A stretch of 64,000 nucleotides of DNA, taken from positions 2,373,001 through 2,437,000 of the forward strand of contig JAPFFF010000020.1 in NCBI GenBank assembly GCA_039105265.1. The letters run 5' to 3'. Below, one piece after another: positions 9,098 through 61,483 of the stretch. How positions within the stretch are numbered: position 1 is the first letter of the stretch; the number at the start of each line of letters is the position of its first letter. The position numbers were made by a program, and so were the translations under genes. The notes under the pieces were generated by a model, which worked only from the letters and a program-made list of their open reading frames with translations, did not search any database and was not told the origin of the DNA. Origin of the DNA: Tritrichomonas musculus. Lineage: Eukaryota > Parabasalia > Tritrichomonadida > Tritrichomonadidae.

Positions 9098-9117
9098 TTT
9101 TAGTTGAAATAAAAAGT

Positions 9118-36161: not shown

Positions 36162-36243
36162 CCGCTCTTAGATCAGTGGTAGAGCGTCTGACTGTAGAAA
36201 TGTGGTCATCAGAATGTCGCCGGTTCGATTCCAGCAGCGCGGA
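36162..36243 (+). tRNA. tRNA-Tyr (GTA) with a 10-nt intron
   Basis: Cloverleaf: acceptor CCGCTCT/AGCGCGG, D arm GATC-AGTGGTA-GAGC, anticodon stem TCTGA/TCAGA, anticodon GTA in CTGTAGA with a 10-nt intron (AAATGTGGTC) after position 37, T arm GCCGG-TTCGATT-CCAGC, discriminator A. Eukaryotic tRNA-Tyr genes commonly carry an intron at this place. There is one mismatch each in the acceptor, D and T stems, so the copy may be weakened. The next bases are C and a run of nine T, a Pol III terminator, which here belong to the retrotransposon 5' end. Confidence 0.8.
36228..36242 (+). repeat. target site duplication, copy 1 (inside tRNA)
   Basis: ATTCCAGCAGCGCGG: second half of the T loop, T stem and acceptor 3' strand of the tRNA. 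Identical at 42874-42888 and 43009-43023. Confidence 0.9.
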
Positions 36244-36366
36244 CTTTTTTTTTCGTCAAATTCAAAGAATCACACTAGCCAACTTTTTACACAAGATTCG
36301 AAATCTACGCATGTTCCTCAATCGATTGGTGGCCTTGGTTCTATAAATCAATCTAATAATATATCC

Positions 36367-39300
36367 ATGGTCGACCAATCGTCGCGTTTTATCGAAGGTG
36401 GTTTCATGTCTTTTGAACCTACTGCTGAAGCAGTTTCGCATGATCCATCCGCTTTTCCTTCATGCGCTAACGAATTTTCAATTGGACCCAATATCAATTC
36501 TCCTCATTACTGTCCGGCGCCAACGGTGGCACTCCGACCTCCCATCTCGCAAGAAAACCCGACCCATAACTGTTCAACTACACCAATTATTGAGTTTCCG
36601 GAATCTGATCCCATTGACCCGAATTCTTTTGTTCATTCACCGCCCGAAGCCTATTTTTGCAACAATGAGAACATTTCCAATGTTAATGTCAATTTTGAAC
36701 TAAACGAAGCTAATCTAAATACCATGGCCAATGTCGTTCACCACGATGTGGACGTCAACGAGCAAGTTGTCAATTCTATTGCAAACGTAGTTCATCATAA
36801 TGTTCTTGTTAACCACGGGATCCTTAATTCAGCGGCAAGAGTCGACAATCATATTGTCGATGTTCAACAGCAGGTTCTTCAAACTCAAGCGATCGTCAAT
36901 CATCATAACATTGAAGTTAAGGAGAATACACTAAACTCAGTTGCCAACGTCGAAAGCAACCTTATAGAAGTTAAATCAAATACCATCAAATCAATAGCAA
37001 ATGTCGATAACCATGAATTAGAAGTCAAGACGAATACAATTAAAACAATTACGGAAGTCGACAACCACAAACTCGACATACGCAATAACACAATTGAATC
37101 GATCGCCAATGTTGATAATCACGAAATTAAAGTCAACAAAAACGATATCATTTCAGCAGTCAATGTCGATAATCACAAAGTTCTAGTCAAAAAACACGAT
37201 TACTCATCAATTGCCGATGTTGAATGTCACTTTCTCGACATTCAGAAAAATAACATCAAATCAATCGCCAACATAGACAATCATTACATCGATATACATA
37301 AAAACGACAATAGATCTATTGCCAATGTAGACAATCACTACGTTGACGTCATATCGAATGATCAAAGATCGATTGCCAGAGTTGACAATCATCTTGTCGA
37401 CGTTCAAGAAAGAACGCACAATTCTACAGCTTTAGTCCAACATCACGAGGTTAACGTCCTTAACGAGCTTTGTAGCTCAACAGCCCTTGTTCAAAGCAAT
37501 CAAATTAATGTTAACGAAATGACACTTACAAACACAGCCAATATTTATAGCAATAATATCAAAGTGAATCATCAGATCATTCCTTCAACAGCAGAAGTCC
37601 AGAACCATAAAGTTAATATTGTTGAGAAAACACTCCAATCTACAATCGCTGTCCCGAAATTTGTTGTCAATGTCACTGAAAAAGAAGTTCCAATTAATAT
37701 TTCTACTGAAAATATTGCCAATCAGCTCCTCTGCAGTATCCTGCAAGCCACTAATCAGATCACAAATAAGAATCTCACTCCTGTTTCAAACGATAAATCC
37801 TCTATCGGCATCCAGTCGATTCTGGATAATGAAGAGTGCCACGAAATTATCGCTGCCAGCCGTCCGCATGGTAGACCGTCCAAAAAGTCAATTCCTTATT
37901 CTTCTATGAATGCTACAAAGCCTTACTCTTCTCGATGTAGCATTATTGACGATGGAGAAAACCAGCGGCCCGCACAGGCTGTCACTGACGTTTCAGATAT
38001 AGACGAAGGAGAGAGAAGTGAAGTTGCGAGCACGACAACGGAATCTTCTAACTCTAGTCAGAGTGTTCCTAACTCTAACCGAAATATAAATGACAACCAA
38101 CTAAGAGGCCATAACAATAGAGACAATGATCGTAGAGACAACAGTCCTTCAGATGCTTCATCAGGCGCTGAAGAAGATGAAGGGAATCTCACGCCTGAAT
38201 CTCTTGAAAGAGATTTAAGAGAAGTTTCGTCATATGAAGATTTAAAACGAGTGAGAAGGAAATGGAACCATAAACTAGTAGATGCATCATTGTGGGGATC
38301 CAATGTTGATGTCGTGGAGAACCCAGTGATGTGGAATGTTGTTATATCAAGTGAATGGCCAGGTGTTGGACGCTTTATCTGTCCTCATTGTCTAACGCAC
38401 GCAGATGACGTACATGCAAACATTCGTAACCACCTCGAACGTGAACACGGAACTGTCCCCATTGATACACTACACAATGCCACCATTGCAAAGATCATCG
38501 GTCGTTCGCATCTTTGGAAACTTTGTAGAGAAGATAACGAAGATGTTATTATTGAATCAGTCTACACTTGTACCGAAGTAGGTTGCAACTACTTCACAAA
38601 TGTCAGAAAGAATTATCTGTCGCACATTCGTTCACATGCCCAATTGAAAGATCTTGTTCAAAAGTTTGGAGCCTTCTGGGGCCCAATCATTGACAGAGCC
38701 AAAACTGGCAAAATGCTGAAGGCAGCTGACATCTTTAGAGAACGCATGGGATTCGGTTGTCCATTTTGTGACGACTACATTGCATGCTCAGAAAACAATT
38801 TTTCAGCTCACATCTCACAGAAGCACAGTAATGTTCGTATTGAAGGAGTGGAGAGACCAACACCCACTCGAATCAGACTTATTCCTATGATTACTCACGA
38901 ATCAAACGACATTGATGAAATAGCACCAGGACTTGACTTCGTTAGATTATCACGCCGCAGAGAACCTCGAGTTAATAGAAGAGCCAACGATAACAATCAA
39001 CAGCAACATGAAAATGAACCAAGTACAGAAAACACCCAGATCCCACAGATAACTCGTAGCATTGACCACAACACTCAAGATGAAAGGTTGAACTCGTCTG
39101 TCTCATCATCACAACCAACACAGCAATCTCAAACACAGATCATAAATGAACATAGGCAAGAAGATCCAGCTGATGTATTAGGTCTTAATTTTGACAATAA
39201 CACTTCCCACAACAGTGTTAACATTATTAATGCTAACCTGCCGAGTGATTCAGATGACGACGACGGAACACATTCATTACGAAGTGAATCCATAATGGAT

Positions 39301-42300
39301 ACACTCACGCCTGACGAGATGGCCGTAGAAGAAGTTGAAGAAGAAATACATTATGACAAGGAAGAACTATTAAGGAAAGCAGTTAAATGGTTAAGAAAAT
39401 GCGAAGAAGAAGAAGAAAATGGAGTTTCTCTCCCACGTTTGAAAGCAAGACAGCGGAAGCGTGTTATTGTTCCAATCCGTAATCTGTTCGAAACGAAAAT
39501 AACTGAACTTATTAAATTTATTAAGTTTCGTGACATGGATGACGACGACTGGACTATTACAGAAGGAATTCTAGCAAGGATTTCACTCTTGATCCGTAAG
39601 TGTATCCGCACTTCATTGAAAATCCCTATCAATAATACAAAGAAGAAGAAAGTTAGAAATAGGGACCTTGAGTATAACCGCTCCACTCTAACGGTTAAAA
39701 GAATCTTCCAATTAACCGAGTTAAGTGATCTGTTAGAGAAGTTGAGTGAAATATCAGATACACGAGAAACAGCAGCCAACAGAAACTCTATTGCTAATAT
39801 TGAAAGGAGGATTGTCGATTGCATTCAACAAACTGATGCTGGAGTCGTCAATGAACTTTTCGGAGGAAGATCTATTGAAAACGTGAGACGTTTCTTAAAT
39901 GATTCAGAAGAACATCGTGACAGCAAACTTAAATGGCTCCATGGATGTATTATCAAAGAAGAAAGGAACTATGAAGTGCTTCGTGGACATCGTCATGAAA
40001 AAACAATCCAAGAATTTTATCGTGAAGATGCACGTAGATGCGCTGAATGGTTTATATATGGAACAGTGTCACCTGAATGTAAAGTGCCTCTAGAAAACTT
40101 CGTAAACCATTTTCGAAATGAATGGAGAAGGAGTGGAGATTACAACCAAGATTCTCCTTTGTTAAACCTAGATCCATCTATAGATGAGGAAACACAACAT
40201 TGGATGCTAAAGAAATTATCGGATCAGGATTCTATCGGTAAAGTCATTCGTTCTAAAGCAAATATGTCCGCAGCAGGACCTGATGCAATTTCAAATGTCG
40301 TGTGGAAGTCCAACGTTAATGTCACATGCAAACTTGTTTCACGCCTGATGAAAGCGATGTTGGCTTCAGGCAAGTCACCATCAGCGTGGAAACGCTCCAG
40401 AACTATCATGCTTTATAAGAAAGGTGATAGTGATAATGTGAAATCGTGGCGACCAATCTCTCTTACGCCAACGCTGTATAGAATTGTAATGGGACACGTT
40501 GCAAACGTTGTTCAAGATGCGAACAAACGCAATCCTATTTTCAGCTGCGCTCAGAAAGGTTTCGTGGCGAATGTCAATGGATGCTCTGAACACATTGGAG
40601 TTCTGAATGAGCTCTTCTCACATGCGACTCGGAATAAGAAAGACATTAATGTTGTCACACTGGATTTCGCCAATGCATTTGGTTCCGTTGATCACCGACA
40701 GATTGTTAATAGCCTTGTTTCTCTTGGATTCCCTAAACCTTTTTGCCGATGGATCAAAGACCTTTACAACGAGAACGTCACAACAATCTCTGTCAATGGA
40801 GAGAACAGTCAGATGATTCCAATGGAGCGTGGCGTTCGGCAAGGATGTCCTTTTTCCCCAATATTATTCAATCTATGTCTGGAACCTCTGCTGCGTGAGT
40901 TACTTTCAAACCACAAAGCCGACGGTTATAGAATAGACGATCTTTCCTTTAATGTTCAAGCTTTCGCCGACGATGTGGTCCTGATATCGCACAACACTGA
41001 ACAAATGCGCAGTATGCTCAGAACAGTCCAGTCGTTCTGCTCAGTAACAGGAATGAAACTCACAGGTTCTAAATGCAAATGGTTAAGTTATATAATGAAA
41101 GATGGCCGAAGAGTTTCATCTTCAGACACACTAGAAATCAACGAAGACGAAATTAAATCTATCAACATTTCGGATTGCATAAAATATCTTGGTGCTCCTA
41201 TTGCTACAAACCGTACTTCTAAAATGAAATTCTCTGAGAATCTTCTAATTAAAGTTAGACATCAAATAAATCAACTATTATTAAGTCCTCTGACTTTATC
41301 TCAAAGCCTTGATGCAATCAGAAGACTTATCATTCCTCAACTGGACTTCGTTTTTATGAATGGAGTTTTATCTCTTAGCTTTGTTAAAAAATTGGACGAG
41401 AATATCAGAGGTCTCATTCAGAAGAAAATCAAGTGTCCAGGTTTGCCTATCGAGGTCGTTCATTCAGATTGGAAAAACGGTGGTATGAACATACCACGTC
41501 TTGAGCACCGTCTCGAGCTTCTTCAAATCCGTTCATTCCTCGGTCTTGTGACGAGTAAAGACGAGAGAATTAGAAACCTTATCAAACACAACATCATAGA
41601 TGAAGCACACAAACGTCACTTTTTACGAAGCGACGATAACTCATTTATTGGATTCAACAAAACATCTTTAGGATCTACAAATGCACTGAAAACGAACACA
41701 ACGTTTACTAGAGCTTTACAAGCTGCAGATAAACTCAACATCTCCATTAAAGTAGAAGATGAAGGACAGAACGATCCAGAGTCTCTTGACTGGATCAGTG
41801 ACTCACCATTGACAATCTTCAAACTAACAACTGCTGTTGACAATGATGGTAAAATCATAAATGCAAAAAGTTTTCTACCGACGATGAACTTGCTTCTGGA
41901 CGAACAATATAGTTCGGATCTATCGTCTAAAGAATTCCGATGCCACTCATTCGACTCTCTGAAAAACTCGAAACTTTCTAACTTTTTCATTGGCAACTGC
42001 AATGCACCAACATCTGACTGCTTGGTAAAATTTGCATTCCAGGCGAGAACAAACTCGCTTCTCACAGAAGAAGTGGAACATAAGAGAAACTTGAATCCAA
42101 GTGACAAATGTAGAGCATGTGGTGATCGTTTTACGGGATCACTAATGCATAGACTAAACAAATGTAACGCCTCAATGGTCCGAATCACAGCTAGACACAA
42201 TGCAATTGCGCGCGTTATTAGTGATGGTTTGAAAGATATGTTAGGTTTCAATTGTCCCCCACTCAATGAAAATTCAACTGTCTTCATCCGTGACGAGGAA

Positions 42301-42804
42301 ATACTTCCTGAACGGTCCAGGAACATGAAGCCGGACATCTGGTTCATCGAGGAAGACGTTCATACGCACAAAAGAACAATTAACATTATAGAAATTACCT
42401 GCCCATATGGTATGCAGACAGACACAGCACAAGGAAGGAGATCTTCTTTAGAAATCAGAGAAGAAGAAAAAGTTAACAAATACAGTAAACTAATTGATGA
42501 CATCAAAGATACATGGAGCATTGATTCAAACCTTTATGTAATTGTGGTTTCCTCACTCGGCGCAATTACTAAAAACACTGTAAAAACTCTGAAGAAACTC
42601 TTCATCACAAAAGAACGAAGTAAGCTTATAGCTAAGCGTTGTGTTATAGCCGCGATAAGAGGTTCATGGGCCATTTTCAATGGCAGAGACATTAGAAATT
42701 CAACCAACAACAGAAATAAAAACGCATCAGACGATACTGACCACATTTCTTCTAATGACCTCATTGATGAGGAGGATGGAGACATCCTTAATAATGATAA
42801 CTAA
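36367..42804 (+). CDS. R2-type retrotransposon polyprotein: C2H2 fingers, RT, restriction-like endonuclease
   Basis: The frame is open from inside the tRNA, but the first ATG within the element is 36367 (2145 residues). Residue numbers here count from the open frame at 36202. Order: polar N-terminus; eighteen 18-residue repeats (170-493); Ser/Asn-rich linker; three C2H2 fingers (C-P-H-C ~725, C-T-E-V-G-C ~795, C-P-F-C ~855); acidic linker; RT with W-R-P-I-S-L-T, D-F-A-N-A-F, R-Q-G-C-P-F-S-P and F-A-D-D (~1590); CCHC knuckle C-R-A-C-G-D ... H-R-L-N-K-C (~1971); endonuclease P-D-I-W ... I-I-E-I-T-C-P. By family mechanism the endonuclease nicks the target and RT primes from it. All catalytic motifs are present with no stops, so it may be active. 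Confidence 0.9.
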   Translation: MVDQSSRFIEGGFMSFEPTAEAVSHDPSAFPSCANEFSIGPNINSPHYCPAPTVALRPPISQENPTHNCSTTPIIEFPESDPIDPNSFVHSPPEAYFCNNENISNVNVNFELNEANLNTMANVVHHDVDVNEQVVNSIANVVHHNVLVNHGILNSAARVDNHIVDVQQQVLQTQAIVNHHNIEVKENTLNSVANVESNLIEVKSNTIKSIANVDNHELEVKTNTIKTITEVDNHKLDIRNNTIESIANVDNHEIKVNKNDIISAVNVDNHKVLVKKHDYSSIADVECHFLDIQKNNIKSIANIDNHYIDIHKNDNRSIANVDNHYVDVISNDQRSIARVDNHLVDVQERTHNSTALVQHHEVNVLNELCSSTALVQSNQINVNEMTLTNTANIYSNNIKVNHQIIPSTAEVQNHKVNIVEKTLQSTIAVPKFVVNVTEKEVPINISTENIANQLLCSILQATNQITNKNLTPVSNDKSSIGIQSILDNEECHEIIAASRPHGRPSKKSIPYSSMNATKPYSSRCSIIDDGENQRPAQAVTDVSDIDEGERSEVASTTTESSNSSQSVPNSNRNINDNQLRGHNNRDNDRRDNSPSDASSGAEEDEGNLTPESLERDLREVSSYEDLKRVRRKWNHKLVDASLWGSNVDVVENPVMWNVVISSEWPGVGRFICPHCLTHADDVHANIRNHLEREHGTVPIDTLHNATIAKIIGRSHLWKLCREDNEDVIIESVYTCTEVGCNYFTNVRKNYLSHIRSHAQLKDLVQKFGAFWGPIIDRAKTGKMLKAADIFRERMGFGCPFCDDYIACSENNFSAHISQKHSNVRIEGVERPTPTRIRLIPMITHESNDIDEIAPGLDFVRLSRRREPRVNRRANDNNQQQHENEPSTENTQIPQITRSIDHNTQDERLNSSVSSSQPTQQSQTQIINEHRQEDPADVLGLNFDNNTSHNSVNIINANLPSDSDDDDGTHSLRSESIMDTLTPDEMAVEEVEEEIHYDKEELLRKAVKWLRKCEEEEENGVSLPRLKARQRKRVIVPIRNLFETKITELIKFIKFRDMDDDDWTITEGILARISLLIRKCIRTSLKIPINNTKKKKVRNRDLEYNRSTLTVKRIFQLTELSDLLEKLSEISDTRETAANRNSIANIERRIVDCIQQTDAGVVNELFGGRSIENVRRFLNDSEEHRDSKLKWLHGCIIKEERNYEVLRGHRHEKTIQEFYREDARRCAEWFIYGTVSPECKVPLENFVNHFRNEWRRSGDYNQDSPLLNLDPSIDEETQHWMLKKLSDQDSIGKVIRSKANMSAAGPDAISNVVWKSNVNVTCKLVSRLMKAMLASGKSPSAWKRSRTIMLYKKGDSDNVKSWRPISLTPTLYRIVMGHVANVVQDANKRNPIFSCAQKGFVANVNGCSEHIGVLNELFSHATRNKKDINVVTLDFANAFGSVDHRQIVNSLVSLGFPKPFCRWIKDLYNENVTTISVNGENSQMIPMERGVRQGCPFSPILFNLCLEPLLRELLSNHKADGYRIDDLSFNVQAFADDVVLISHNTEQMRSMLRTVQSFCSVTGMKLTGSKCKWLSYIMKDGRRVSSSDTLEINEDEIKSINISDCIKYLGAPIATNRTSKMKFSENLLIKVRHQINQLLLSPLTLSQSLDAIRRLIIPQLDFVFMNGVLSLSFVKKLDENIRGLIQKKIKCPGLPIEVVHSDWKNGGMNIPRLEHRLELLQIRSFLGLVTSKDERIRNLIKHNIIDEAHKRHFLRSDDNSFIGFNKTSLGSTNALKTNTTFTRALQAADKLNISIKVEDEGQNDPESLDWISDSPLTIFKLTTAVDNDGKIINAKSFLPTMNLLLDEQYSSDLSSKEFRCHSFDSLKNSKLSNFFIGNCNAPTSDCLVKFAFQARTNSLLTEEVEHKRNLNPSDKCRACGDRFTGSLMHRLNKCNASMVRITARHNAIARVISDGLKDMLGFNCPPLNENSTVFIRDEEILPERSRNMKPDIWFIEEDVHTHKRTINIIEITCPYGMQTDTAQGRRSSLEIREEEKVNKYSKLIDDIKDTWSIDSNLYVIVVSSLGAITKNTVKTLKKLFITKERSKLIAKRCVIAAIRGSWAIFNGRDIRNSTNNRNKNASDDTDHISSNDLIDEEDGDILNNDN
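36709..37680 (+). repeat. eighteen tandem 54-bp units coding 18-residue repeats
   Basis: Consensus is close to N-T-I-x-S-I-A-N-V-D-N-H-x-[IV]-x-V-x-x. All units are exactly 54 bp, with the last few diverged. Alternating hydrophobic and polar residues suggest two short beta strands per unit, hence a beta-solenoid. Such a domain is not part of the usual R2 architecture as I know it. Confidence 0.9.
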
Positions 42805-42888
42805 TTCTGTATTAGTTTAATTTATATTCTTTATTTATTACTCTAATGCTTATATATCTCAATAAACACTTAAATTCCAGCAGCGCGG

Positions 42889-43008
42889 ATTTTTTTTTCG
42901 TCAAATTTAAAGAATCACACCTGGTAACTTTTTACACAAGATTCGAAATCTACGCATGTTCCTCAATCGATTGGTGGCCTTGGTTCTATAAATCAATCTA
43001 ACACTTAA
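42889..43008 (+). mobile_element. 120-bp internally deleted copy of the tRNA-targeted retrotransposon
   Basis: Directly after the second target copy comes the first ~110 bp of the element (compare 36243-36353), joined to only the last ~9 bp of its 3' end (AACACTTAA). A third target copy follows at 43009-43023 with a T-tract. It differs from the full element by a few substitutions (for example CTGGTAAC for TAGCCAAC). It is a minimal derivative retaining both ends. Confidence 0.88.
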
Positions 43009-43064
43009 ATTCCAGCAGCGCGGTTTTTTTTTTTTTTTGTTTTGTTTTAAATATATCAGAATTC

Positions 43065-50641: not shown

Positions 50642-52054
50642 ATGAGTTACCGACGAGATGTACAACAAGATGAACAGGTTCATTTACCATTAGAGACAAC
50701 ATTTAATTCATCAATTGATGGAGTTGTGGATGATATTCATTCTAATAGGATCCATTTTAAATATCCACCTGAATGGAATACATCTAATGTGAACGAAAAA
50801 ATAATTGGCATTCGAAATATTCATTTAAAACGAAAACATAAAACTCTGAAATTCATACTATACGTTAGGAAATACGACAAAGATAAATTCGATGTAGGCT
50901 TCAAAGACAGTTCTGTAGAGTACTTAATTCAATTATTAGATAACTTATTAGATGACCTACCTGATGTATTTTGGATTTATATTAATGGTTCAGATAATAA
51001 AGAGTTAAAGAGTCAAGTCAATGAAGAATCTCAAAGATTGTTTGGTAAGTACTATTATACTCTGAAACATGAGCAGAGTATTACTGTTATGAAAAATGTA
51101 TTGAAATATAATGAACTGTATTTGTTTATGCGATATGCGTTGACTCGTAAAGAAATCGAAGACATTAACAATGAATTGAACAACAGTAATGGGATAGAGA
51201 ATATTATAGAGATTCAGTTATCAAATATGGATCCAACTAATATTATGGTGTTTCGTATTCCCATTAATATTACGATTGATGAAGATGATACATGGAATGA
51301 TATTCATGATAAATTGATTGAATGCATAAAGAAAACAAATATATATAACTATTTGCGTAGTGTTATTATAGATAAATATGATACTGTAGAATTGATATCT
51401 AAGTTGAGTCAACTTAATAGCATTCGTGATGATTACGATCTTATGTTAACACAATGTGAAAACTTAATTGATTATAATATACCATTTTACATTATTGATG
51501 GAGATGTTGATGTCCTTAACTATAGTTATAAACGAATGAAACAATTAGTGTTCGAGAAAAATGATAATAATTATTACTGTGATTATATGATTACTCCACC
51601 AAATGATTCATACAATAACCTTTATAAATGGAATGATTCTTATAGAAAACCTGAATATGGTTATCCATATTTACTTATTTCTAATGACATAACATTTGAG
51701 GATAAGTGTTTTGTCTTTGATGTAGACACCAGAAATTTCTTGAACATTGGTCCTAATAATCCTACAGAGTATGTATGTAAGTATCATAGGAATTTATATT
51801 TCCATAATATTAGAACTGATTTAGACTGCCGAGTTGCTGCATCATTTGCAAGTCAATCCAATCATAACATTATAGGTAAAACTAATGAGACATTTGAAAA
51901 CATTAAGTACTATAAGATTAATGATAATGGTAACTCATTTTGGATAGAATGTTACGATAACGATGATATCAACATTCCAATTAGTTTTAATGACGACGTT
52001 GTTCTTACTATGGATGTCGTATTTCTTCAAAATCGTAAGTTACTCTACAGCTGA
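50642..52054 (+). CDS. Mav2 hypothetical, 470 aa, possible minor capsid protein
   Basis: ATG 50642, seven bases after a TATTTTT box (50628-50634). No catalytic motif. The N-terminal half alternates strands and helices; the C-terminal ~150 residues are beta-rich and end F-W-I-E-C-Y-D-N-D-D ... V-V-L-T-M-D-V-V-F-L. Polintons usually carry a penton-like minor capsid gene, and this is the largest unassigned gene of Mav2 in view, so it is a candidate by elimination. The next gene starts 19 bp after its stop. Confidence 0.6.
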   Translation: MSYRRDVQQDEQVHLPLETTFNSSIDGVVDDIHSNRIHFKYPPEWNTSNVNEKIIGIRNIHLKRKHKTLKFILYVRKYDKDKFDVGFKDSSVEYLIQLLDNLLDDLPDVFWIYINGSDNKELKSQVNEESQRLFGKYYYTLKHEQSITVMKNVLKYNELYLFMRYALTRKEIEDINNELNNSNGIENIIEIQLSNMDPTNIMVFRIPINITIDEDDTWNDIHDKLIECIKKTNIYNYLRSVIIDKYDTVELISKLSQLNSIRDDYDLMLTQCENLIDYNIPFYIIDGDVDVLNYSYKRMKQLVFEKNDNNYYCDYMITPPNDSYNNLYKWNDSYRKPEYGYPYLLISNDITFEDKCFVFDVDTRNFLNIGPNNPTEYVCKYHRNLYFHNIRTDLDCRVAASFASQSNHNIIGKTNETFENIKYYKINDNGNSFWIECYDNDDINIPISFNDDVVLTMDVVFLQNRKLLYS

Positions 52055-52073
52055 AAACTCTAATCCATTATAA

Positions 52074-53204
52074 ATGTCTAGAATTAAGTTTGCAACAATT
52101 GCCGATGTTTATGCTAAATATCCAACGAATACATTATCTCGGTTCAAGAAAATAGCTAACAGATATGGCTTTACTGATGATGAAGCCGCAGAATACTTAA
52201 ACAGTCATGTAATTCATGATAAACATATTCCTCCACCTAAGTTCATGCATATTTATTCTAAAATCCCACATGCATTCCAAATGGATACATTCTTTGACGA
52301 CACTAAGTCGACAACAGGGATTGATGACACTAAGTCGACAACAGGGATTGGCAAATCAGATTATCTTATGTTGATTAATATTAATACCCGTAAGGCGTAT
52401 GCTTATCCAATGTCAGGCAAGGGAGCTAAGGAGGTATTGAGATCATTAAATGAATTCATTAAGGATGAACCTGAATGTAAGTCTATTATGTCAGATGAAG
52501 ATACAGCTTATTTGTCAAACACTGTGTTAGATTTTATGAGGGAACATCACATAATCTACACTACTACCACCGACAATGATCACAATAAGTTAGGTATTAT
52601 TAATAGGTTTATGAGAACAATTAGGGACATGCAGAACAAAGTTAACCGAGATATAGTATCCTTAGTTGAATCCTATAATGACATGCCTCATAGATCACTT
52701 AATTATAAAACTCCAAATGAAATAACTAGAGATGACGAATTAGAGTACATCGCTAAGATGGAACAAGACAACCCATATAAGTTCAAACCAGGTGATACAG
52801 TTAGAGTTGTTCTTGATAAGAGCCCCTTAAGAAAACACCGAACCAATTTTTCTAAGGAGTCATATATTGTTGATTCTCCTTATGGGAACCAATTCTTAAT
52901 AAGATCTAGTGATGGATCTGTTGATACAGTACCAGGTTATAAACTAGTTAAGTCAGCTAAAAATGTTCCATTAGCGACAACTATTAAAGATGGCAAGCGA
53001 GGTATCGTTAAAGATATCCGATCCTACAACACCAAGAATGACACTTATTCGATTACATATTTATTGACAGACAATTCATTAGTCAAAGACACTATCAAAT
53101 CTAAATATATGCGTGAGGGTCATCCAACCAAGTTATCGACAATGGAGCGTCAATATTGGCTTAATCAAAATAGCATTCCAGATCGAATTAAGAAATTCAT
53201 TTAA
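52074..53204 (+). CDS. Mav2 integrase (third catalytic residue Asn)
   Basis: 376 residues from ATG 52074. The core has F-Q-M-D-T-F-F (first Asp), I-M-S-D-E-D-T-A-Y (second Asp) and L-G-I-I-N-R-F-M-R-T-I-R-D, where the expected Glu/Asp is Asn. The C-terminal domain has Y-K-F-K-P-G-D-T-V-R-V-V and a chromodomain-like tail. An exact 27-bp in-frame duplication encodes D-D-T-K-S-T-T-G-I twice next to the first Asp. Both oddities suggest an enzyme that has lost activity, though the frame is intact. It is followed after 1 bp by the ATPase ATG. Confidence 0.82.
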   Translation: MSRIKFATIADVYAKYPTNTLSRFKKIANRYGFTDDEAAEYLNSHVIHDKHIPPPKFMHIYSKIPHAFQMDTFFDDTKSTTGIDDTKSTTGIGKSDYLMLININTRKAYAYPMSGKGAKEVLRSLNEFIKDEPECKSIMSDEDTAYLSNTVLDFMREHHIIYTTTTDNDHNKLGIINRFMRTIRDMQNKVNRDIVSLVESYNDMPHRSLNYKTPNEITRDDELEYIAKMEQDNPYKFKPGDTVRVVLDKSPLRKHRTNFSKESYIVDSPYGNQFLIRSSDGSVDTVPGYKLVKSAKNVPLATTIKDGKRGIVKDIRSYNTKNDTYSITYLLTDNSLVKDTIKSKYMREGHPTKLSTMERQYWLNQNSIPDRIKKFI

Positions 53205-53403
53205 TATGATACAAATGGTTGAAATCAAGCGAGTTGAGGAATTAATTGAGGATTCATTACGTAAGAATCAGCGAGATATTGAGATGGCTTTAATAAAACC
53301 ACTTAGTCCAGAATATCCATTCTCATCCAATGGTATATATTTTCTGATCGGCAAAATGGGTGCCGGCAAGTCATTCTGGATATGGAGACATATTATGATA
53401 ACG

Positions 53404-53409
53404 GAGCGA
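53404..53409. repeat. target site duplication of Mav3 (left)
   Basis: GAGCGA, repeated at 61484-61489. Six base pairs is the standard Polinton duplication length. Confidence 0.92.
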
Positions 53410-53746
53410 AGTAGTGATGAGTGTTCCGGATGACAACCAGATAGAAATTCACTTATGACCGCCATTACTGCCCTAATTTAGAAGGCCATCTAACTATTTT
53501 TGAATTGACACTAACTGATACTCATAACTAGGAATAATTGATCAGCATCATGGGGTCACATTGATGTTCACTTATGACCACTTATGACCGCCATTACAGC
53601 CCTAGTTTTGAAGGCCATCTAACTATTTTTGAATTGACACTAACTGTGATACCAACTGATACTCATGACTAGGAATAAGTGGTCAGCATCATGGGACTAT
53701 ATAGATGTTCACTTATGACCGCCACTATTGCCCTAGTTTAGAAGGC
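53410..53746. repeat. Mav3 left TIR, 337 bp
   Basis: Reverse complement of 61147-61483. It contains a unit repeated with variation, each with TTCACTTATGACCGCCA, GCCCTA, GAAGGC and GATCAGCATCATGGG; the unit appears twice in full and once in part. The arms look identical over the segments compared. Confidence 0.92.
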
Positions 53747-53765
53747 TAGGGGTACTTACTACGAA

Positions 53766-53829
53766 AGGTCATACTAAAGGTTATCCTAAAGGTTGTACTG
53801 AAGGTTGTACTGAAGGTCATACTAAAGGA
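53766..53829. repeat. 12-bp tandem repeats next to Mav3 left TIR
   Basis: Five units of GGT[CT][AG]TACT[AG]AA type (GGTCATACTAAA, GGTTATCCTAAA, GGTTGTACTGAA twice, GGTCATACTAAA). The right side lacks them, so they lie inside the TIR boundary on one side only. Confidence 0.8.
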
Positions 53830-53898
53830 CCTCTCTTACTACCAATCACATTCCACCAGCAACCTAAATTTGTTAAAATAATATTTTATTTTGTATAA

Positions 53899-54375
53899 AT
53901 GGAAATTGACACTGATATACTATTAAAAATTTTAAATGGTATCACCGATTTGTGCCAAGATGTCAAGCATTTGATTAAACGTATGAACCATAAACAGCCA
54001 TCTCCTAATCCAAGCACAACGGTACAGCCTAAGAATTTCGTTCGAAGTGACTCACCTCCTGAGACATCATCTATTGAACATCCCCATTCTCGCTTAAATC
54101 GAACCCATATATTCAATCGAAGCAAGTTTTTGGATATTAAGGATCACGACCGATTGATCCAATATGTCTCATCAAAGGATGTAATCGATGCAGTATCCAA
54201 CGTGGAACCTCATAAACGTATATCCCTATTGCGTAAACTAATATTCGATAACCTAAATTTAAGTATCTCCATGTATATGACCCAAAAACTACTCAACACC
54301 CATATGACTATAAATGTTCCTCCTAGTGAAACGACTCTAACCCCCGAAGTTGAGATTGATACAATCGATTTCTAG
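53899..54375 (+). CDS. Mav3 hypothetical, 158 aa
   Basis: ATG 53899 (MEIDTDILLKILNG), preceded by TATTTTGTATAA. An N-terminal amphipathic helix (I-L-L-K-I-L-N-G-I-T-D-L-C-Q-D-V) could be a coiled coil; a Pro/Ser-rich linker follows; the C-terminus is helical (S-L-L-R-K-L-I-F-D-N-L-N-L-S-I-S-M). No relative recognised in Mav1 or Mav2. It ends 71 bp before the start of the next gene. Confidence 0.6.
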   Translation: MEIDTDILLKILNGITDLCQDVKHLIKRMNHKQPSPNPSTTVQPKNFVRSDSPPETSSIEHPHSRLNRTHIFNRSKFLDIKDHDRLIQYVSSKDVIDAVSNVEPHKRISLLRKLIFDNLNLSISMYMTQKLLNTHMTINVPPSETTLTPEVEIDTIDF

Positions 54376-54445
54376 CCAAAATTCAAAAATAATGTTTAAT
54401 CAATATTTTTACCGATTACAATTTTATATTTTTACGTTTGGGCAA

Positions 54446-57400
54446 ATGAGTTGTATCTCGAATAAGAATTTTGGTGCAATTCCTTCATGGACTATCAAAA
54501 ATTATATCAATATCATCAACAATGAGTTCGGTGGTAACATCCCAACCAACACTACATTTGTTGCTCAACTGAGCAAACTCACGAAGTACCTAAATTATAA
54601 CTCATTTGTAGCTCGCACAGGTTTCAATCCCAATGGTATACTCCAGGAATCTCATTTTGATACATTCTTTGGACAACTGAGGGCTGAACGTCTTGTAGAT
54701 GATAATGATTACTTCAATAAATTCAATAGAGCTGATTACAAAATTAATGAACCCATTGATGTACTTCAACATATGAATACCCAAGATAAGTTCCAACAGC
54801 AATTAGATGATGAACGTAAGGTATATAGGGAACGCCAAATACAACATAATATTGATGTTGCAAAATATGCTTTGCAGGAAGCTCAACGATTGATTCGTGA
54901 AAATGAGTATCCACCAATACTTCCACCACCGACAACTCATAAGAAACCAATTCGGTATGATGAGCAGCCTTCATATATAAAGAGATTGAATGACAAACTG
55001 GATAACGATTACTTCAGTAAATTCAATAGAGATGATTACAAGATTGATGACCCCATTGATGTACTTCAACATATGAATACCCAAGATGAGTTCCAACAGC
55101 AATTAGATGATGAACGTAAGGTATATTCATATTTCAACAAATATTATCCCGAATATCTCGATAGAGCTGAAATACAAGATATATTCCAAGATAGGTCTAA
55201 AATTACAAAACTAGCAAATATTATTGATGACAATACTGATATTGATGGTATCCCCAAAGATCCTGAAAATAATGAAATATTCGAGTACCTTGGCGAGTTC
55301 GGTCATGAATTCAAATCGAAACACAATGATTTCCTCATGGTGAACTTACCTGAGGACTACGATAAGGCTGTAGAGGCTTGGCAAAAATATGCCAAATATG
55401 CTGATAATGATTACAATGAACACACGGATATTGATACCTTCGAGCCTATATACATATACTACTTCAACTCGATATCCTCATTGAACAGTATATATGATGG
55501 CTTGCAACAAGTTTATGAACGTGAGGTGAAACCATTCAAAATATATTTCCAACTCTCGGGTGTATTTGAGTCATCCAGTGCTGAGACTGACACATTCCAA
55601 TATACAGCTAGGGAAATCACTTGGAATAACTATAAATCTGCTACCCCAATTGTGGTTCGTGATGAGCAATCACTTGATATCGTGAAGTACTATATTGAAT
55701 CAGTACTGCACTCATATGAAACCTCAACATCGAGCACCAAGTTGATTCTCGTAGGCACAGTTTCATTCACAGTATCTCGAATGGTCAAGGTTAGTGGTCC
55801 CATCAAGGATTTACCTCCTGAAATCAAAAATAATAAATTCATTATCACAGACAACGTCGATGACAATCTATGTTGGTATCGATTTCTTGCTGCATGTCTC
55901 GATGATCATCTAGTTAACCCCAAATATCATTGTTATACTAAGCATCGTACACAAGCAGCTAGGAAACTTCTGTGCGGGGAACACAATATAGTGTATTCAA
56001 CTAAGCCATCTCAAGCTGCAATCAACTTCCTGAACAACTATCCGGGTACATCAATTGAAGCCATGAAGGCATCTGCTGAAAAGCATCATTTGAATGTTGA
56101 CATCTATGAGTACAATGCAGAACTCAAGGTGTATAACCTTCAGGACCAATGGAAATATAATCGTGACAATTCATTTAGGAAATCTGCATTGCTGTTCACT
56201 CAAAATCGAATCATTCACATAATGTATATCAAGGATGCTGAGAAGTTGACCAACATCCATATCTGCCCAAAGTGTGGCTCATATGCACATTACGGTCATC
56301 ACAATATGAATCGCTTCAAGAATCATGTTGATAACTGTACTGGAGTATTTCGAAAACAATTTATACCTAATCGTGAGCCACTTCCATATTGTCCACATAT
56401 ACTCAACAATCCGGTGTATGAATATTGTTTAGCATATGGTCTCGAATGGAAACCCAACATATATTACATCACTTATGATTTCGAAACTGTTGAACAACCT
56501 GTGAATACATCTATTGGTTCATCAACAACTATCAACTCTCGATTGATTCCACTTAGCGTATCATCATGTGTCAAATCACAATCTGGTTGCAACACACGAC
56601 ACTTCTCATTAAGAGATTCAACTGAGTTCATCACTGAGTGGATTGAGTGGTTGTTTGAGCAATCTCAACAGGTGTATCACGATAAGGTTCAATATATGAA
56701 AACCTTTATTAATGAATCGATTGATACTCTCAATAAAATCGACAGAAACCTGAATGTGATTACCGTATTTGGGTTCAATTCGAGTAGATTCGATAGTAAC
56801 CTATTCAAGCAGTATCTCAATTACTGTTCGTGGAGTGTCGAGTCCAACAGTATCATCGGTACCACATCATCATTGAAGCAGTTCATATTGAAATCCTCAA
56901 AATATGACACCAAGTTGAGATTCATCGATGCTCACAACTTGATGTACGAGGTTGGTAATGTTATGGAGACATTCCAGAAGATGAGAAACATTATTAATAC
57001 CAATGATGGTACCAGAAGCTTCTCATTTAGAACTGTTGATTGCCATGACCAACCAGCACCATTCCATCAAGGTCAGTACTCACAGATTTCATTAACGCAC
57101 CCCGACCACTTTATTAGTGATGTTGATAAAGGTTTCCTCACATTCCACATCAAACTTGATTTGCAATTGAACACCGATACTGCTAAATTACAATTGATTG
57201 AAGATCCTGATAACCTCTACAAATTGTTTGTGGGATTCAAGTCCTCGAACCAATTATTCGACAGGCTGGAGATTCTCCATAACAATGTCAATGTTGGATA
57301 TCAGCAAAATGAATGCATTCGTGAGGGCTTCCTATACTCAGTTTTGAAACCAGAAACCGAGAAGAAACGCCGCAGATTCGTTCACAGCTTATGGGAGAAT

Positions 57401-58777
57401 GTTTCAAATTATAGTCAAACTCATGCAGGTGTTTATGTTAATCTCAATGATTTCAAAGCCAATGGGAAGACCACTACTGAATTCGATTTGAATATACCAT
57501 TTGATGACTTGCTTGCATTGCAGGCATTCGATTTATTCCCCAATGGAATCATTGGTGATTTATCTATTAGATTCCAAGTCAGTCCAGCAGGTCTTGTATG
57601 GGCAGTTATTGATCCATATACGGTTGCTGAAGCGAAGGCATTCTTGGAAGATGATGATCATATTACAATGAAGCAGTTGGAGCAATTGCGTGAGATCAAG
57701 GCTCGTGGTAAACTCAAGAGGCAATTTACGCAAATTGGTAATGAAGCACTTATACCAGGGTTATTCGATAATACAATCAAATTTAAGTACAATATTTGTG
57801 CCGAACATGGAACTCCAGTTAATGATACACCAATTGAAATCACTTTCGAATTTACAGATGAGGAATATGAGAAATTCGGTATTAAGAAGACTATGAATTT
57901 AAAGGAGATTGCACGCCATAATCCCGATTACAAAGGTACTATTGAAGACTATATGACAATTGAAATCGTTGAAGAGAATAATGAACTTAAATATGAATCG
58001 CAACCGGCAACTCTCACCGTTAACCGAATGACTATCACTTTATGTAAATCCAACATGCAAGGATATGGTGTTTGTGAAGCCACTCGTGCGGGTATCGAAT
58101 CCATATTACGTGAAGGACTGATAATTCCATCCCAAAAGGTAGATTATCATGCATTCCCAATTGCTGCTGCATCCAATGGAATCAAATCTACATTGAATAT
58201 CCCATTAATAAATGTCACAAGCATGTCATTATTGTTCCCCAAGCATCACAACGATTTGACCGTATTTGAGAATCCCGTTTACCAAAATTGTTATTTGAAT
58301 ATTGGTGGTAAGAACTTCCCAGATGAGAATGTTAGTACCATTGGTGCTAGATTCTTCGAGAGTCAACTAACAGCTGGCGATTTGGATAGCATCACACTCC
58401 AATGTACTAAGGAATTTGAGGATAGCTTCACTATGCCCAAGAATGATGTTGATGGAAATAGATATAAGAATACATTGAGTGATGCCACATCATTTGTATT
58501 CAATGTCCAAACTGAGAGAGCATCTGCTGGATACTGTTATGATGGCTTAGATGGTGGCAAAGGTAATATCCAAATTCAAGTCAATGGTCAACCAATATTC
58601 ACTGGCAATAATGATACATATTATAATATTATTGAACCAAGTGGAGCTGTTGTTAGACCACCACCTGTACAACTCTGTTTATGTAGAGACACATACTTTA
58701 AGCTCTCACTCGATGGTCTTGAATATGTTGATGATGAATCACCAGCTGGCTCACAAGTTGACCCAGAAATGACTTAA
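54446..58777 (+). CDS. Mav3 fusion of truncated DNA polymerase B to major capsid protein
   Basis: Start chosen at ATG 54446 because a TATTTTT box lies 12 bp upstream (54427-54433); the frame is open from 54350. Residues to ~600: polymerase N-terminus with D-N-L-C-W-Y-R-F-L-A-A-C (OTU/papain-like) and a C-P-K-C ... H-V-D-N-C zinc knuckle. Exo I Y-D-F-E-T (~675) and Exo II F-G-F-N-S-S-R-F-D (~775) follow. At about residue 832, after F-I-D-A-H-N-L, the sequence turns into capsid protein (G-N-V-M-E-T-F-Q, K-L-F-V-G-F-K, S-L-W-E-N-V). Exo III and all polymerase motifs are missing. A ~120-bp segment is repeated at 300-bp spacing (54707, 55007). The fusion is in frame over 1443 residues. Confidence 0.85.
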   Translation: MSCISNKNFGAIPSWTIKNYINIINNEFGGNIPTNTTFVAQLSKLTKYLNYNSFVARTGFNPNGILQESHFDTFFGQLRAERLVDDNDYFNKFNRADYKINEPIDVLQHMNTQDKFQQQLDDERKVYRERQIQHNIDVAKYALQEAQRLIRENEYPPILPPPTTHKKPIRYDEQPSYIKRLNDKLDNDYFSKFNRDDYKIDDPIDVLQHMNTQDEFQQQLDDERKVYSYFNKYYPEYLDRAEIQDIFQDRSKITKLANIIDDNTDIDGIPKDPENNEIFEYLGEFGHEFKSKHNDFLMVNLPEDYDKAVEAWQKYAKYADNDYNEHTDIDTFEPIYIYYFNSISSLNSIYDGLQQVYEREVKPFKIYFQLSGVFESSSAETDTFQYTAREITWNNYKSATPIVVRDEQSLDIVKYYIESVLHSYETSTSSTKLILVGTVSFTVSRMVKVSGPIKDLPPEIKNNKFIITDNVDDNLCWYRFLAACLDDHLVNPKYHCYTKHRTQAARKLLCGEHNIVYSTKPSQAAINFLNNYPGTSIEAMKASAEKHHLNVDIYEYNAELKVYNLQDQWKYNRDNSFRKSALLFTQNRIIHIMYIKDAEKLTNIHICPKCGSYAHYGHHNMNRFKNHVDNCTGVFRKQFIPNREPLPYCPHILNNPVYEYCLAYGLEWKPNIYYITYDFETVEQPVNTSIGSSTTINSRLIPLSVSSCVKSQSGCNTRHFSLRDSTEFITEWIEWLFEQSQQVYHDKVQYMKTFINESIDTLNKIDRNLNVITVFGFNSSRFDSNLFKQYLNYCSWSVESNSIIGTTSSLKQFILKSSKYDTKLRFIDAHNLMYEVGNVMETFQKMRNIINTNDGTRSFSFRTVDCHDQPAPFHQGQYSQISLTHPDHFISDVDKGFLTFHIKLDLQLNTDTAKLQLIEDPDNLYKLFVGFKSSNQLFDRLEILHNNVNVGYQQNECIREGFLYSVLKPETEKKRRRFVHSLWENVSNYSQTHAGVYVNLNDFKANGKTTTEFDLNIPFDDLLALQAFDLFPNGIIGDLSIRFQVSPAGLVWAVIDPYTVAEAKAFLEDDDHITMKQLEQLREIKARGKLKRQFTQIGNEALIPGLFDNTIKFKYNICAEHGTPVNDTPIEITFEFTDEEYEKFGIKKTMNLKEIARHNPDYKGTIEDYMTIEIVEENNELKYESQPATLTVNRMTITLCKSNMQGYGVCEATRAGIESILREGLIIPSQKVDYHAFPIAAASNGIKSTLNIPLINVTSMSLLFPKHHNDLTVFENPVYQNCYLNIGGKNFPDENVSTIGARFFESQLTAGDLDSITLQCTKEFEDSFTMPKNDVDGNRYKNTLSDATSFVFNVQTERASAGYCYDGLDGGKGNIQIQVNGQPIFTGNNDTYYNIIEPSGAVVRPPPVQLCLCRDTYFKLSLDGLEYVDDESPAGSQVDPEMT

Positions 58778-58819
58778 GAAATATAGCAATTGGGGTAAAA
58801 ATATTTTTGTGCTTTGGAA

Positions 58820-59452
58820 ATGACTCTCCATAAGGCTAGAATTCTATCAAGTGAAAATGATGCTAGTGTTAAACAGGAGCAGAATGTGAATATTAAGATT
58901 GCTGCGAATAGACCTCCACCAGTTCAACCAGTATCGTATACTGAAGGGGGTTATCCTCAAGTTCCACAGATGCAACCTCAAGTGCAACCTCAAATGGGAT
59001 ATACTGAAGGGGGATATCCTCAAAATGGCACCCAGAATGCAAATTTTACTACACCCTCGACAACTGGTGCATATCCATCAGTTGCTCTAATAAACAATCC
59101 TCCTCTAGAACGTTCATTAGAACTTGACGGTGAGGATTTGGATACCAAAAATAAATTCCTCGAGATATTGCTGAGTATCTATGAAACGAATCCATTGAGG
59201 ATGAACAACTATCTTGTGTGCCATAGCAACACATTGATGGAGCTCATTAAAATACTCACTAAGGCTGACAAGGTTGAGTTGGTTATAAATGAGGACAGTG
59301 GGTGTACGGGCTGTGTTTCAAATTCGAAGTACATGAAGATTGATAAGATATTGGTATCCAAAAATGGGGTATCCAATGAATTGAAATATGGATATAACCA
59401 TGTATGGACCGAGCTCATAAGACACTCGATATCACTCAAAATTTGTATTTAA
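58820..59452 (+). CDS. Mav3 conserved protein with ARILSSENDASVKQEQN N-terminus
   Basis: ATG 58820, eleven bases after TATTTTT (58802-58808). It shares the N-terminal peptide and the K-N-K-F-L-E, Y-E-T-N-P-L, [VL]-V-C and A-D-K-[VI]-E-L-V blocks with the 165-aa protein of Mav1 (8335-8832). The linker has T-E-G-G-Y-P-Q twice and is Pro/Gln-rich. It continues ~25 residues further than the Mav1 copy. Function unknown; it lies directly after the capsid gene. Confidence 0.75.
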   Translation: MTLHKARILSSENDASVKQEQNVNIKIAANRPPPVQPVSYTEGGYPQVPQMQPQVQPQMGYTEGGYPQNGTQNANFTTPSTTGAYPSVALINNPPLERSLELDGEDLDTKNKFLEILLSIYETNPLRMNNYLVCHSNTLMELIKILTKADKVELVINEDSGCTGCVSNSKYMKIDKILVSKNGVSNELKYGYNHVWTELIRHSISLKICI

Positions 59453-59462
59453 ATTTTCATAA

Positions 59463-59612
59463 ATGTCACTTGCAAGCGAGATCATCATGAATATATTATT
59501 AGGGTTGATACTAGCGACCAACATAATTGAACTACTAATATTGGTATCGTTTACTGCAGAGGATGAACCACCTGAGTTGACCGATGAGCTGAGACGCACA
59601 TTATACGCCTGA
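59463..59612 (+). CDS. small membrane protein, 49 aa
   Basis: ATG 59463 (MSLASEIIMNILLG) to TGA 59612. One transmembrane helix (residues ~7-30: I-I-M-N-I-L-L-G-L-I-L-A-T-N-I-I-E-L-L-I) and an acidic tail (D-E-P-P-E-L-T-D-E-L). It fits the 10-bp and 20-bp gaps to its neighbours, supporting a real gene. Role unknown. Confidence 0.55.
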   Translation: MSLASEIIMNILLGLILATNIIELLILVSFTAEDEPPELTDELRRTLYA

Positions 59613-59632
59613 AAAGCTTTATTTTTGATTAA

Positions 59633-60574
59633 ATGTTGTATTATAAACGCCTGCAGCCAACTCTTTTTGATTATACATCTATCGAATTATCAGACAGTTC
59701 CAGTGGAGAGCCAATAGATTTTGACACATTTGAGCAGGAACTGCGTTCTATGTTCCAGAAGCAGCAACCGGTTTCCAAGAGGTTTGATGTTGATGAAGCT
59801 ATGAGTGAGGCCTATTCCAAAAATAGGGATAAAATCACGAATGCATCCATAAGACCAATCGCTAACGGAATATATGCTTGGTACAATACTTTGAACATAC
59901 TGGTAGCTTCTCAAGGCAAAGGTAAGAGTCACACAGTTATTCGTGATATCATTCAAATGAGTAGACTCAAAAATAACCCATTTCATATGATAGTCTATGT
60001 GAGCAAAAATGGTATTATAAATGATTCCACATTTGAATCTCAACGTGAACTCATCAACTTGCCCATTGAGGTTGTCGCTGATAGTAATGCTGAACGGTAT
60101 TTGAAGGAACTCGATTTATGGAAAGAGTTGTATAACAAATATAGCTCAGTTGGGAAGATTATTGTCGATGAACAGAAGTTGCAGCAAATGTTTGAGTTCC
60201 TTCATATCAACAAACTTGGGAAACCCAATGTACCACTCAATACGATAATCCTTTGTGAGGATTTCATTAAGAGTAAGCTGTTGAAATCATCATACTTCAC
60301 AAACTATATTACACAGTTGCGCCATAAGAATTCAATCGTTTACATCAATATCCAGTTCTTCAAAGGTGTGCCAACTGATTACAAAAATAATTGTACATCA
60401 TTCTTCATATTCAATGGGTTCTCGCGACAGAAACTCAATTACATATATCAGCAGGTGAGCATACCTTGTGAATTCGAAGAGTTGTGGCAAAAATATAGAA
60501 CCTTATCTGGACATGATTTCATATTGGTGAACACTGTTGAACACGATATGCAAGTTATATATAGTAAGATTTAG
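59633..60574 (+). CDS. Mav3 FtsK/A32-like packaging ATPase
   Basis: 313 residues from ATG 59633, with TATTTTT six bases upstream (59620-59626). Walker A region V-A-S-Q-G-K-G-K-S, Walker B T-I-I-L-C-E-D-F, then V-Y-I-N-I-Q-F-F in place of the sensor glutamine strand. It is related to the Mav1 ATPase: V-S-K-N-G follows strand 2, and N-x-x-x-x-x-F-x-F-x-x-F lies near the end. Walker B has Glu-Asp rather than Asp-Asp. Complete. It overlaps the reverse-strand gene by 4 bp at the stop. Confidence 0.82.
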   Translation: MLYYKRLQPTLFDYTSIELSDSSSGEPIDFDTFEQELRSMFQKQQPVSKRFDVDEAMSEAYSKNRDKITNASIRPIANGIYAWYNTLNILVASQGKGKSHTVIRDIIQMSRLKNNPFHMIVYVSKNGIINDSTFESQRELINLPIEVVADSNAERYLKELDLWKELYNKYSSVGKIIVDEQKLQQMFEFLHINKLGKPNVPLNTIILCEDFIKSKLLKSSYFTNYITQLRHKNSIVYINIQFFKGVPTDYKNNCTSFFIFNGFSRQKLNYIYQQVSIPCEFEELWQKYRTLSGHDFILVNTVEHDMQVIYSKI

Positions 60575-61056: not shown

Positions 61057-61146
61057 TTGGTGGTGATAAAAAAATCAATATTCAAATTTAAAAATAGGTT
61101 TATTTTTGGGGTCGATGCGAATGCATAAATGCAAAAATAGTTAGGG

Positions 61147-61483
61147 GCCTTCTAAACTAGGGCAATAGTGGCGGTCATAAGTGAACATCTATATAGTCCC
61201 ATGATGCTGACCACTTATTCCTAGTCATGAGTATCAGTTGGTATCACAGTTAGTGTCAATTCAAAAATAGTTAGATGGCCTTCAAAACTAGGGCTGTAAT
61301 GGCGGTCATAAGTGGTCATAAGTGAACATCAATGTGACCCCATGATGCTGATCAATTATTCCTAGTTATGAGTATCAGTTAGTGTCAATTCAAAAATAGT
61401 TAGATGGCCTTCTAAATTAGGGCAGTAATGGCGGTCATAAGTGAATTTCTATCTGGTTGTCATCCGGAACACTCATCACTACT
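61147..61483. repeat. Mav3 right TIR, 337 bp
   Basis: Reverse complement of 53410-53746, ending CACTCATCACTACT-3' at the duplicated GAGCGA. Confidence 0.92.

Follow-up and report, generated by a model that had tools for sequence, protein, structure and literature searches.

How long interspersed elements (LINEs) with a restriction-like endonuclease (RLE) read and change their targets is an open question, and the best studied of them, R2, hits a single site in 28S ribosomal DNA (rDNA). In Trichomonas vaginalis, the family NeSL-1_TV is specific for tRNA-Pro, and its phylogenetic position was left open by its authors (excerpts of PMC4640811; Kojima and Jurka 2015). The same excerpts place the planarian families LIN15_SM at tRNA-Arg and LIN25_SM at tRNA-Glu, and Utopia elements at U2 small nuclear RNA (snRNA); reptile Utopia elements have 20-bp duplications, and tandem insertion is described from a wasp. 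Fish Dada DNA transposons form families specialised on different tRNA or snRNA genes (excerpts of PMC8869645). Here we describe element A, a 6.6-kb LINE with a single open frame that lies immediately 3' of a tRNA-Tyr gene in a window (the whole stretch of DNA analysed) of 64,000 nucleotides from Tritrichomonas musculus (assembly GCA_039105265.1, contig JAPFFF010000020.1, positions 2,373,001 to 2,437,000 of the forward strand). We consider it very likely that, in this mouse gut protist, element A is one family of a clade of tRNA-specific RLE LINEs that insert into tRNA genes by targeted target-primed reverse transcription (TPRT). The following features make up element A and its target site (positions count from the first letter of the window):

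36162-36243, +: tRNA-Tyr(GTA) gene with a 10-nt intron (Rfam RF00005; ARAGORN with introns; comparison by eye)
36202-42804, +: open frame of 2200 codons, entering from the tRNA (list of open reading frames)
36228-36242, +: target copy 1, within the tRNA gene (exact match)
36244-36253, +: C and nine Ts (T9), the interval between tRNA and element (T-run lengths in Tyr, Asn and Met contexts)
36254-42873, +: element A, full-length tRNA-Tyr-specific RLE LINE (both boundaries as in the copy on contig C29, the 5' one also as in the derivative)
approx. 36652-37641, +: repeats of ~18 residues (VDNH...SIAN type), N-terminal to the fingers (repeat spacing; limits by eye)
38380-38448, +: zinc finger 1, CCHH (motif; several ligand columns nearly invariant in a 12-row alignment)
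38569-38637, +: zinc finger 2, CCHH (motif; 12-row alignment)
38758-38826, +: zinc finger 3, CCHH (motif; weak, sub-cut-off Pfam zf-Di19 match; 12-row alignment)
40420-41199, +: reverse transcriptase (RT) domain RVT_1 (Pfam PF00078, E 5.4e-36)
within 40963-40983, +: ADD catalytic motif of the RT
42109-42165, +: CCHC motif ahead of the endonuclease
42328-42411, +: restriction-like endonuclease core, KPD...E
42839-42867, +: 3' signal, TACTCTAATG (42839-42848) and AATAAAC (42861-42867), common to other families
42874-42888, +: target copy 2 (exact match)
42889-43008, +: internally deleted derivative, ~112 bp of the 5' end and the last 3' bases (sequence comparison)
43009-43023, +: target copy 3, followed by T15 (exact match)

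An in-frame ATG of element A at 36367 corresponds to the start of the metagenome protein P0001, which is 99% identical. When A was aligned with 11 related proteins (12 rows), the ADD of the RT, all four residues of the CCHC motif, and the P-D and E of the endonuclease proved invariant. A profile made from these rows matched solved R2 structures over the RT region (chain E 3.3e-107), with a separate match to the C-terminal endonuclease domain of R2 chain 9nl3 (71 bits, E 2.5e-19). RNase H was absent from the Pfam matches of the A protein. Based on the predicted protein, which combines a LINE-type RT with a C-terminal CCHC motif and a PD-(D/E)xK-type endonuclease, element A classifies as an RLE-type LINE.

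The tRNA at 36162-36243 (+) is the sole Rfam tRNA of the window; ARAGORN names it tRNA-Tyr(GTA) when introns are allowed and makes no call in a default scan. Its D-stem reads GATC, as opposed to GCTC in the other tRNA-Tyr genes printed (by eye), and this base change at window position 36172 may have weakened the occupied gene. The sequence ATTCCAGCAGCGCGG has three exact matches on the + strand of the window, starting at 36228, 42874 and 43009, so the initial annotation was right that 15-bp tRNA copies flank the element. It had also placed a second derivative at the identical site, and we find one there: the 120-base interval between target copies 2 and 3 joins the element's 5' end to its last bases, and 42890-43001 aligns to the element's 5' end (36245-36356) with 95.5% identity over 112 bp. 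Given this 5' match and the element's last bases at the end of the piece, we regard the interval as an internally deleted derivative.

A second A copy with a full open frame lies on contig C29, again directly 3' of a tRNA-Tyr gene; because it stands behind another such gene, a chance association is excluded. We searched the genome with the last kilobase of A and obtained seven matches, comprising four 3' ends, two 5' ends and an internal piece on C15. All four readable 3' ends (window, C29, C5 and C15) continue into the tRNA-Tyr 3' end, that on C15 with one mismatch. Among 25 distinct tRNA-Tyr-type genes read from 40 matches (ARAGORN names three of the 25 Asn), two are followed by an A 5' end and two more, on C5 and C15, by A remnants. 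A relative on C3 (65% identity, five stops) has lost both ends; its target is therefore not readable, and it was left out of the copy counts. The earlier proposal that a zinc-finger/RLE element targets the tRNA-Tyr 3' end is thus supported by the C29 copy and by every readable 3' end, although recognition by the finger and endonuclease parts is our inference; the annotation had also called for a check for A copies at unrelated sites, and there are none among copies with readable ends. At C5:470348-475089, a degenerate A element, its tail followed by a T-run of 51, is enclosed by two tRNA-Tyr genes in facing orientation.

Five related families (B-F) occur in the T. musculus genome, two at tRNA-Asn and one each at tRNA-Phe, tRNA-Ala and tRNA-Met. 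Families B and C, which are 34-36% identical to A and present in many copies, were found by a search with the RT-RLE part of A, in which the best 49 of 278 candidates were scored. The fetched B and C copies all (26/26) continue into CCACACGGGAGGAG, the 3' end of tRNA-Asn(GTT). Exact B 3' ends number 16 in the genome; 15 carry the full tRNA-Asn end and one carries nine bases before an inversion. At this rearranged joint (L135, C1:5203711), the B-family 3' end is followed by nine tRNA-Asn end bases and then by inverted B sequence. Copies with readable ends thus keep to one tRNA species per family (A, 4/4 3' ends; B and C, 26/26).

Families D, E and F were found using the metagenome relative P0013 as the query (best 23 of 1859 candidates scored); with P0008, the best 22 of 2704 candidates scored were all A-, B- or C-type at 32-36%. 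Judged by its 3' joints, D uses tRNA-Phe(GAA), and the joints of E and F assign them to tRNA-Ala(TGC) and tRNA-Met(CAT), respectively. One E head gene and all three E tails read are at tRNA-Ala, and for F, two head genes and all five tails read are at tRNA-Met, with a sixth locus stopping at a contig end. For D, three tails were read, and the Phe heads L120, L123 and L125 are D-like by eye. The Phe target pattern, with one mismatch allowed, occurs 133 times, vs 0 for the reversed pattern, and a whole tRNA-Phe gene stands at each of the 15 Phe-pattern sites picked from the list as single sites or as heads of arrays. A tRNA-Pro target for D, considered at first (cf. NeSL-1_TV), was rejected, as the first head pattern gave 0 matches and the genes read are tRNA-Phe. 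Long regular arrays, mostly of 3.5-3.6 kb units with a tRNA-Phe 3' end at every joint, were seen among the matches listed at C10:3187547-3240593 and on C66, C115, C185, C252 and C270.

The tRNA-Asn 3'-half pattern has 52 occurrences in the genome. We read 28 tRNA-Asn genes, mostly the best-scoring matches; in 25, an element stands directly behind the T-run, and three are empty. On contigs C1-C27, 19 of 36 tRNA-Asn heads have a tail within 10 kb on the matching strand, and two of the remaining 17 (C10:912170 and C27:1084977) were seen directly to carry an element; based on the count by position, the occupied share genome-wide is below that of the genes read. The distance from head to nearest tail is 0.86-1.1 kb in 11 of the 19 and 7.1-7.4 kb in five. 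The pattern of an element 3' end joined to the tRNA-Asn end occurs 267 times (its reverse, 0 times), a count that, like the others, does not represent independent insertions because many copies stand in arrays. A tail lies within 10 kb of 13/18 genes of the GGGAGGAG type and of 4/8 GGGAAGAG genes on C14, whereas all seven GGGAAGAG-type genes outside C14 lack one. These frequencies hint that the base distinguishing GGGAGGAG from GGGAAGAG matters; the two types may also differ by descent.

Two parts of A were compared between the window copy (contig C20) and the C29 copy, with identities of 99.3% and 99.4%. Using blastn, we found no similarity between their downstream flanks. Their upstream flanks share four patches, one of 366 bp at differing distance and three of 36-53 bp, one of the latter at about equal distance in both copies. 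An element that was simply duplicated along with its tRNA gene, with no targeting, would account for the fixed-period arrays (a period of 10,094 bp in F; units of ~3.5 kb at tRNA-Phe sites), which are block duplications. However, such an origin would not be expected to leave the C20 and C29 copies without a common downstream flank and with no upstream likeness beyond patches. It also sits poorly with tRNA-Asn heads that have differing upstream flanks and bear different elements at the identical base, and with families 34-36% identical to A that behave alike at another tRNA species. We consider it barely credible, and plain block duplication was set aside on these flank comparisons.

The joints of all six families, at five tRNA species, fall at a single point of the T-loop, spread within about two bases: TTCG|A for families A, B, D and E, TTCGA|G for F, and TTCGAT|CC for C. 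All identified targets are genes of RNA polymerase III (Pol III) with T-runs, as would be expected if the Pol III machinery directed insertion near any tRNA gene without reading of sequence, in the fashion of Dictyostelium TRE or yeast Ty3. However, the families with readable ends are each confined to a single tRNA species and, within the gene, to a single base position, whereas TRE5, TRE3 and DGLT-A insert some distance outside it (for TRE5/TRE3, about 50 bp on the upstream or 100 bp on the downstream side; excerpts of PMC5006619). Direction by Pol III machinery is accordingly improbable in our judgement, and sequence-specific insertion remains the preferred reading.

The families also share a 3' signal. 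The motif TACTCT(A/T)ATG occurs in the last 75 bases of five of the six families (E is without it), and this number was reached in 0 of 20,000 letter shuffles; A(A/T)TAAAC lies near the end of five of six, with AATAAATG in the C copy used. A common folded 3' RNA structure was not found in six tails (A, B, C, D, F and one short Asn derivative). Compared with shuffles, four of six tails fold better (z -2.6 to -3.9) and two do not. The boundary bases differ among otherwise alike 3' ends (TTTA/TTTT/TTAT; TAAA/TAAT; AAA/AAT/AAG before CC), as is expected from fresh joining at each insertion.

All 42 distinct Tyr, Asn and Met contexts with an element have a T-run of 8-10 before the element 5' end, as do 15 of 34 contexts without a recognised element (p 4.9e-9, for contexts that are not independent). 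Four Ala contexts, outside this count, read ATA then T8 with an element and T6 without. The C and T9 at 36244-36253 are probably the element's own 5' end, acting as a Pol III terminator, and we read the 15-base duplication as ending at the tRNA 3' end, with T8-T10 supplied by the element. A duplication that includes the T-run was set aside on the T-run lengths together with tRNA-Met heads vs tails.

Several observations weigh against targeted insertion with plain duplication of the tRNA end. The tRNA-Met tails read GCAAA in six of six distinct contexts, whereas GCAGA stands at the heads of F copies (by direct reading at C6 and C60, by match of spacing at C8 and C33; at the C33 head, the first F copy is itself outside the scored list). 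The 14 tRNA-Met genes found comprise seven with GCAGA, five with GCAAA and two that read otherwise. The GCAAA tails would still fit a duplication ending at the tRNA end, but the inner GCAAA-T9 joints would then require crossing over. On C14, the nearest tails of two GTGAGGAG heads are GGGAGGAG, and the GGGAAGAG heads at 2250076 and 2254542 have one common nearest tail, also GGGAGGAG. Of 14 Phe contexts, likewise outside the T-run count, the four labelled as carrying an element have T7, T8, T9 and T2, off the T-run rule. Family D was assigned to tRNA-Phe by its 3' joints, and none of the head tRNA-Phe genes read has D directly behind it. Finally, near-identical arrays hold many copies, both full elements and derivatives of ~0.9 and 1.1 kb.

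The tRNA-Met tails and the GTGAGGAG heads with GGGAGGAG tails could be accounted for if the element itself carried the downstream 15-base tRNA end, as a copy made from its RNA, and in truth inserted at the T-run behind the tRNA gene. The 14-base consensus, kept in 52/52 tail readings (overlapping fetched loci unmerged) while 5/28 heads vary, points the same way. However, a carried tail is at odds with the variable bases at the boundary between like 3' ends and the tRNA, which look freshly joined. Tails of the GGGAAGAG type also exist, and among the 100 listed, 10 of 13 are on C14, the site of GGGAAGAG heads too; there, nearest-tail pairs match for two of four GGGAAGAG heads (2193462 and 2237191, with GGGAAGAG tails). 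We consider a carried tail a possible but doubtful explanation, and target-site duplication the preferred one.

The site, the position, its repeated use and the parts of the protein are seen in the sequences; under targeted insertion, we infer from them the following course for recognition, nicking, termination and array growth. The A protein would bind the 3' part of tRNA-Tyr genes, with the zinc fingers as the likely reader, and the RLE would make its nick at TTCG|A of the T-loop, on the bottom strand. The element RNA, its 3' end marked by TACTCTAATG...AATAAAC, would be reverse-transcribed from the nick, and the top strand would be cut at the final base of the tRNA, ~15 bases farther downstream. 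The outcome would be a complete tRNA gene, an element whose 5' T8-T10 serves as replacement terminator, and the 15 bases of the tRNA 3' end a second time. Arrays could grow by repeated insertion at one gene and by unequal crossing over between duplicates, and the sister families would act at the matching position in Asn, Phe, Ala and Met genes. On a broader proposal we are evenly divided: one LINE clade would have switched among at least five tRNA species in one genome, with the T-loop cut, set by the universal TTCGA, kept constant and the common 3' RNA signal retained, so that only the reading of the acceptor and T-stem would change, while T9 would replace the gene's terminator, so that many genes of one species can be occupied without being silenced.

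We placed the elements in an RT tree of 36 rows with apurinic endonuclease (APE)-type outgroups and three R2 sequences, and with no row for R4, HERO, CRE or NeSL-1_TV. A single clade (21 rows, support 100/99) unites the six T. musculus families with 15 metagenome relatives; it adjoins three Utopia-like rows (97/87), with R2 outside in the best tree. A profile search for further references recovered no sequence named as NeSL, R4 or CRE. "Utopia-like" is here a label from host and domain order, given to the wasp protein P0017, the oomycete protein P0019 (RNase H before RT) and P0018. A tree constrained to group the tRNA elements with R2 was not rejected (p-AU 0.176, with three R2 sequences), and the deep branches lacked resolution in an earlier RT tree with five extra rows. 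In the best tree, the RT thus appears nearer to Utopia/NeSL-type elements than to R2, with R2 grouping and other alternatives not rejected. "R2 proper" was set aside on the RT tree; the "R2-type" label of the initial annotation holds only in the broad sense of an RLE-type LINE, and the comparison it suggested with R2, NeSL and CRE was carried out with R2 and Utopia-like rows, without a CRE row. An HDV-like ribozyme at the 5' end is a trait of the R2 clade; we found no match to one, at E up to 1, in ten loci that included the 5' ends of A, B, D, E and F. A ribozyme function of the R2 5' end is mentioned in excerpts of PMC5035012.

The metagenome relative P0050 (4690 aa) has PF00443, which we take to be the ubiquitin hydrolase family UCH, in its precomputed Pfam list. 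NeSL elements bear an Ulp1-like protease (excerpts of PMC4640811).

Elsewhere in the window, we label two stretches as Maverick-like: a Maverick/Polinton-like block at 2302-13887 and a second block at 50642-62146. Their features are:

2302-3138, -: Pox_A32-like ATPase (Pfam)
9031-10248: integrase-like frame (by eye; no Pfam match)
10345-13887, -: DNA polymerase B (PF03175)
52074-53204: rve integrase (weak Pfam match)
54350-58777: long frame (no Pfam match)
59633-60574 and 61457-62146: ATPase-like frames (by eye only)

The published T. musculus assembly comprises 193.49 Mb in 756 contigs, with 42.67% repeats in total (excerpts of PMC11978803); a word search of the main text of that paper found no "transpos", "retro" or "line". 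In open-licence PubMed Central papers, the scope of our search as opposed to preprints and subscription papers, we found nothing beyond PMC4640811 on a radiation within one genome in which each family keeps to a single tRNA species while landing position and 3' signal are held in common. The initial annotation had regarded tRNA targeting as not standard in a trichomonad, which is in part contradicted by NeSL-1_TV, LIN15_SM and LIN25_SM as described in excerpts of PMC4640811. Relative to the literature found, the kind of element is already known, and the additions are families at tRNA-Tyr, -Asn, -Phe, -Ala and -Met, their common landing point and their scale. Because six related families share architecture, landing position and, in five of six, the 3' signal but between them read five different tRNA genes, they allow target reading to be compared across families; they offer a natural series for the study of target choice by self-copying elements. 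They also provide a case of parasites established at many of the genes for one essential tRNA (25/28 of the tRNA-Asn genes read) with the gene sequence left complete.

Among known systems, R2 is like element A in having an RT and an RLE, and R2 proteins are the best matches of A among solved structures (E 2.3e-55); however, R2 targets 28S rDNA, and A targets tRNA-Tyr. One R2 subgroup has three zinc fingers, as does element A. The Dictyostelium TRE5 and TRE3 elements are also tRNA-gene-linked LINEs, but they insert outside the gene, whereas the T. musculus families insert within it. Dada resembles these families in target specialisation by family; unlike them, Dada elements are DNA transposons without an RT. 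NeSL-1_TV is likewise a trichomonad RLE LINE confined to one tRNA gene (Pro), with another tRNA and another host than A, and LIN15_SM and LIN25_SM are NeSL-related LIN families at tRNA genes; all three were compared by description only. The Utopia/NeSL clade shares the RLE LINE architecture of one to three N-terminal zinc fingers, RT, zinc finger and RLE, and some Utopia families show tandem insertion in target genes and 20-bp duplications (excerpts of PMC4640811). Element A differs in having no Pfam match to RNase H. In contrast to the U2 snRNA and spliced-leader targets of that clade, the T. musculus families occupy tRNA genes and form a separate clade (100/99).

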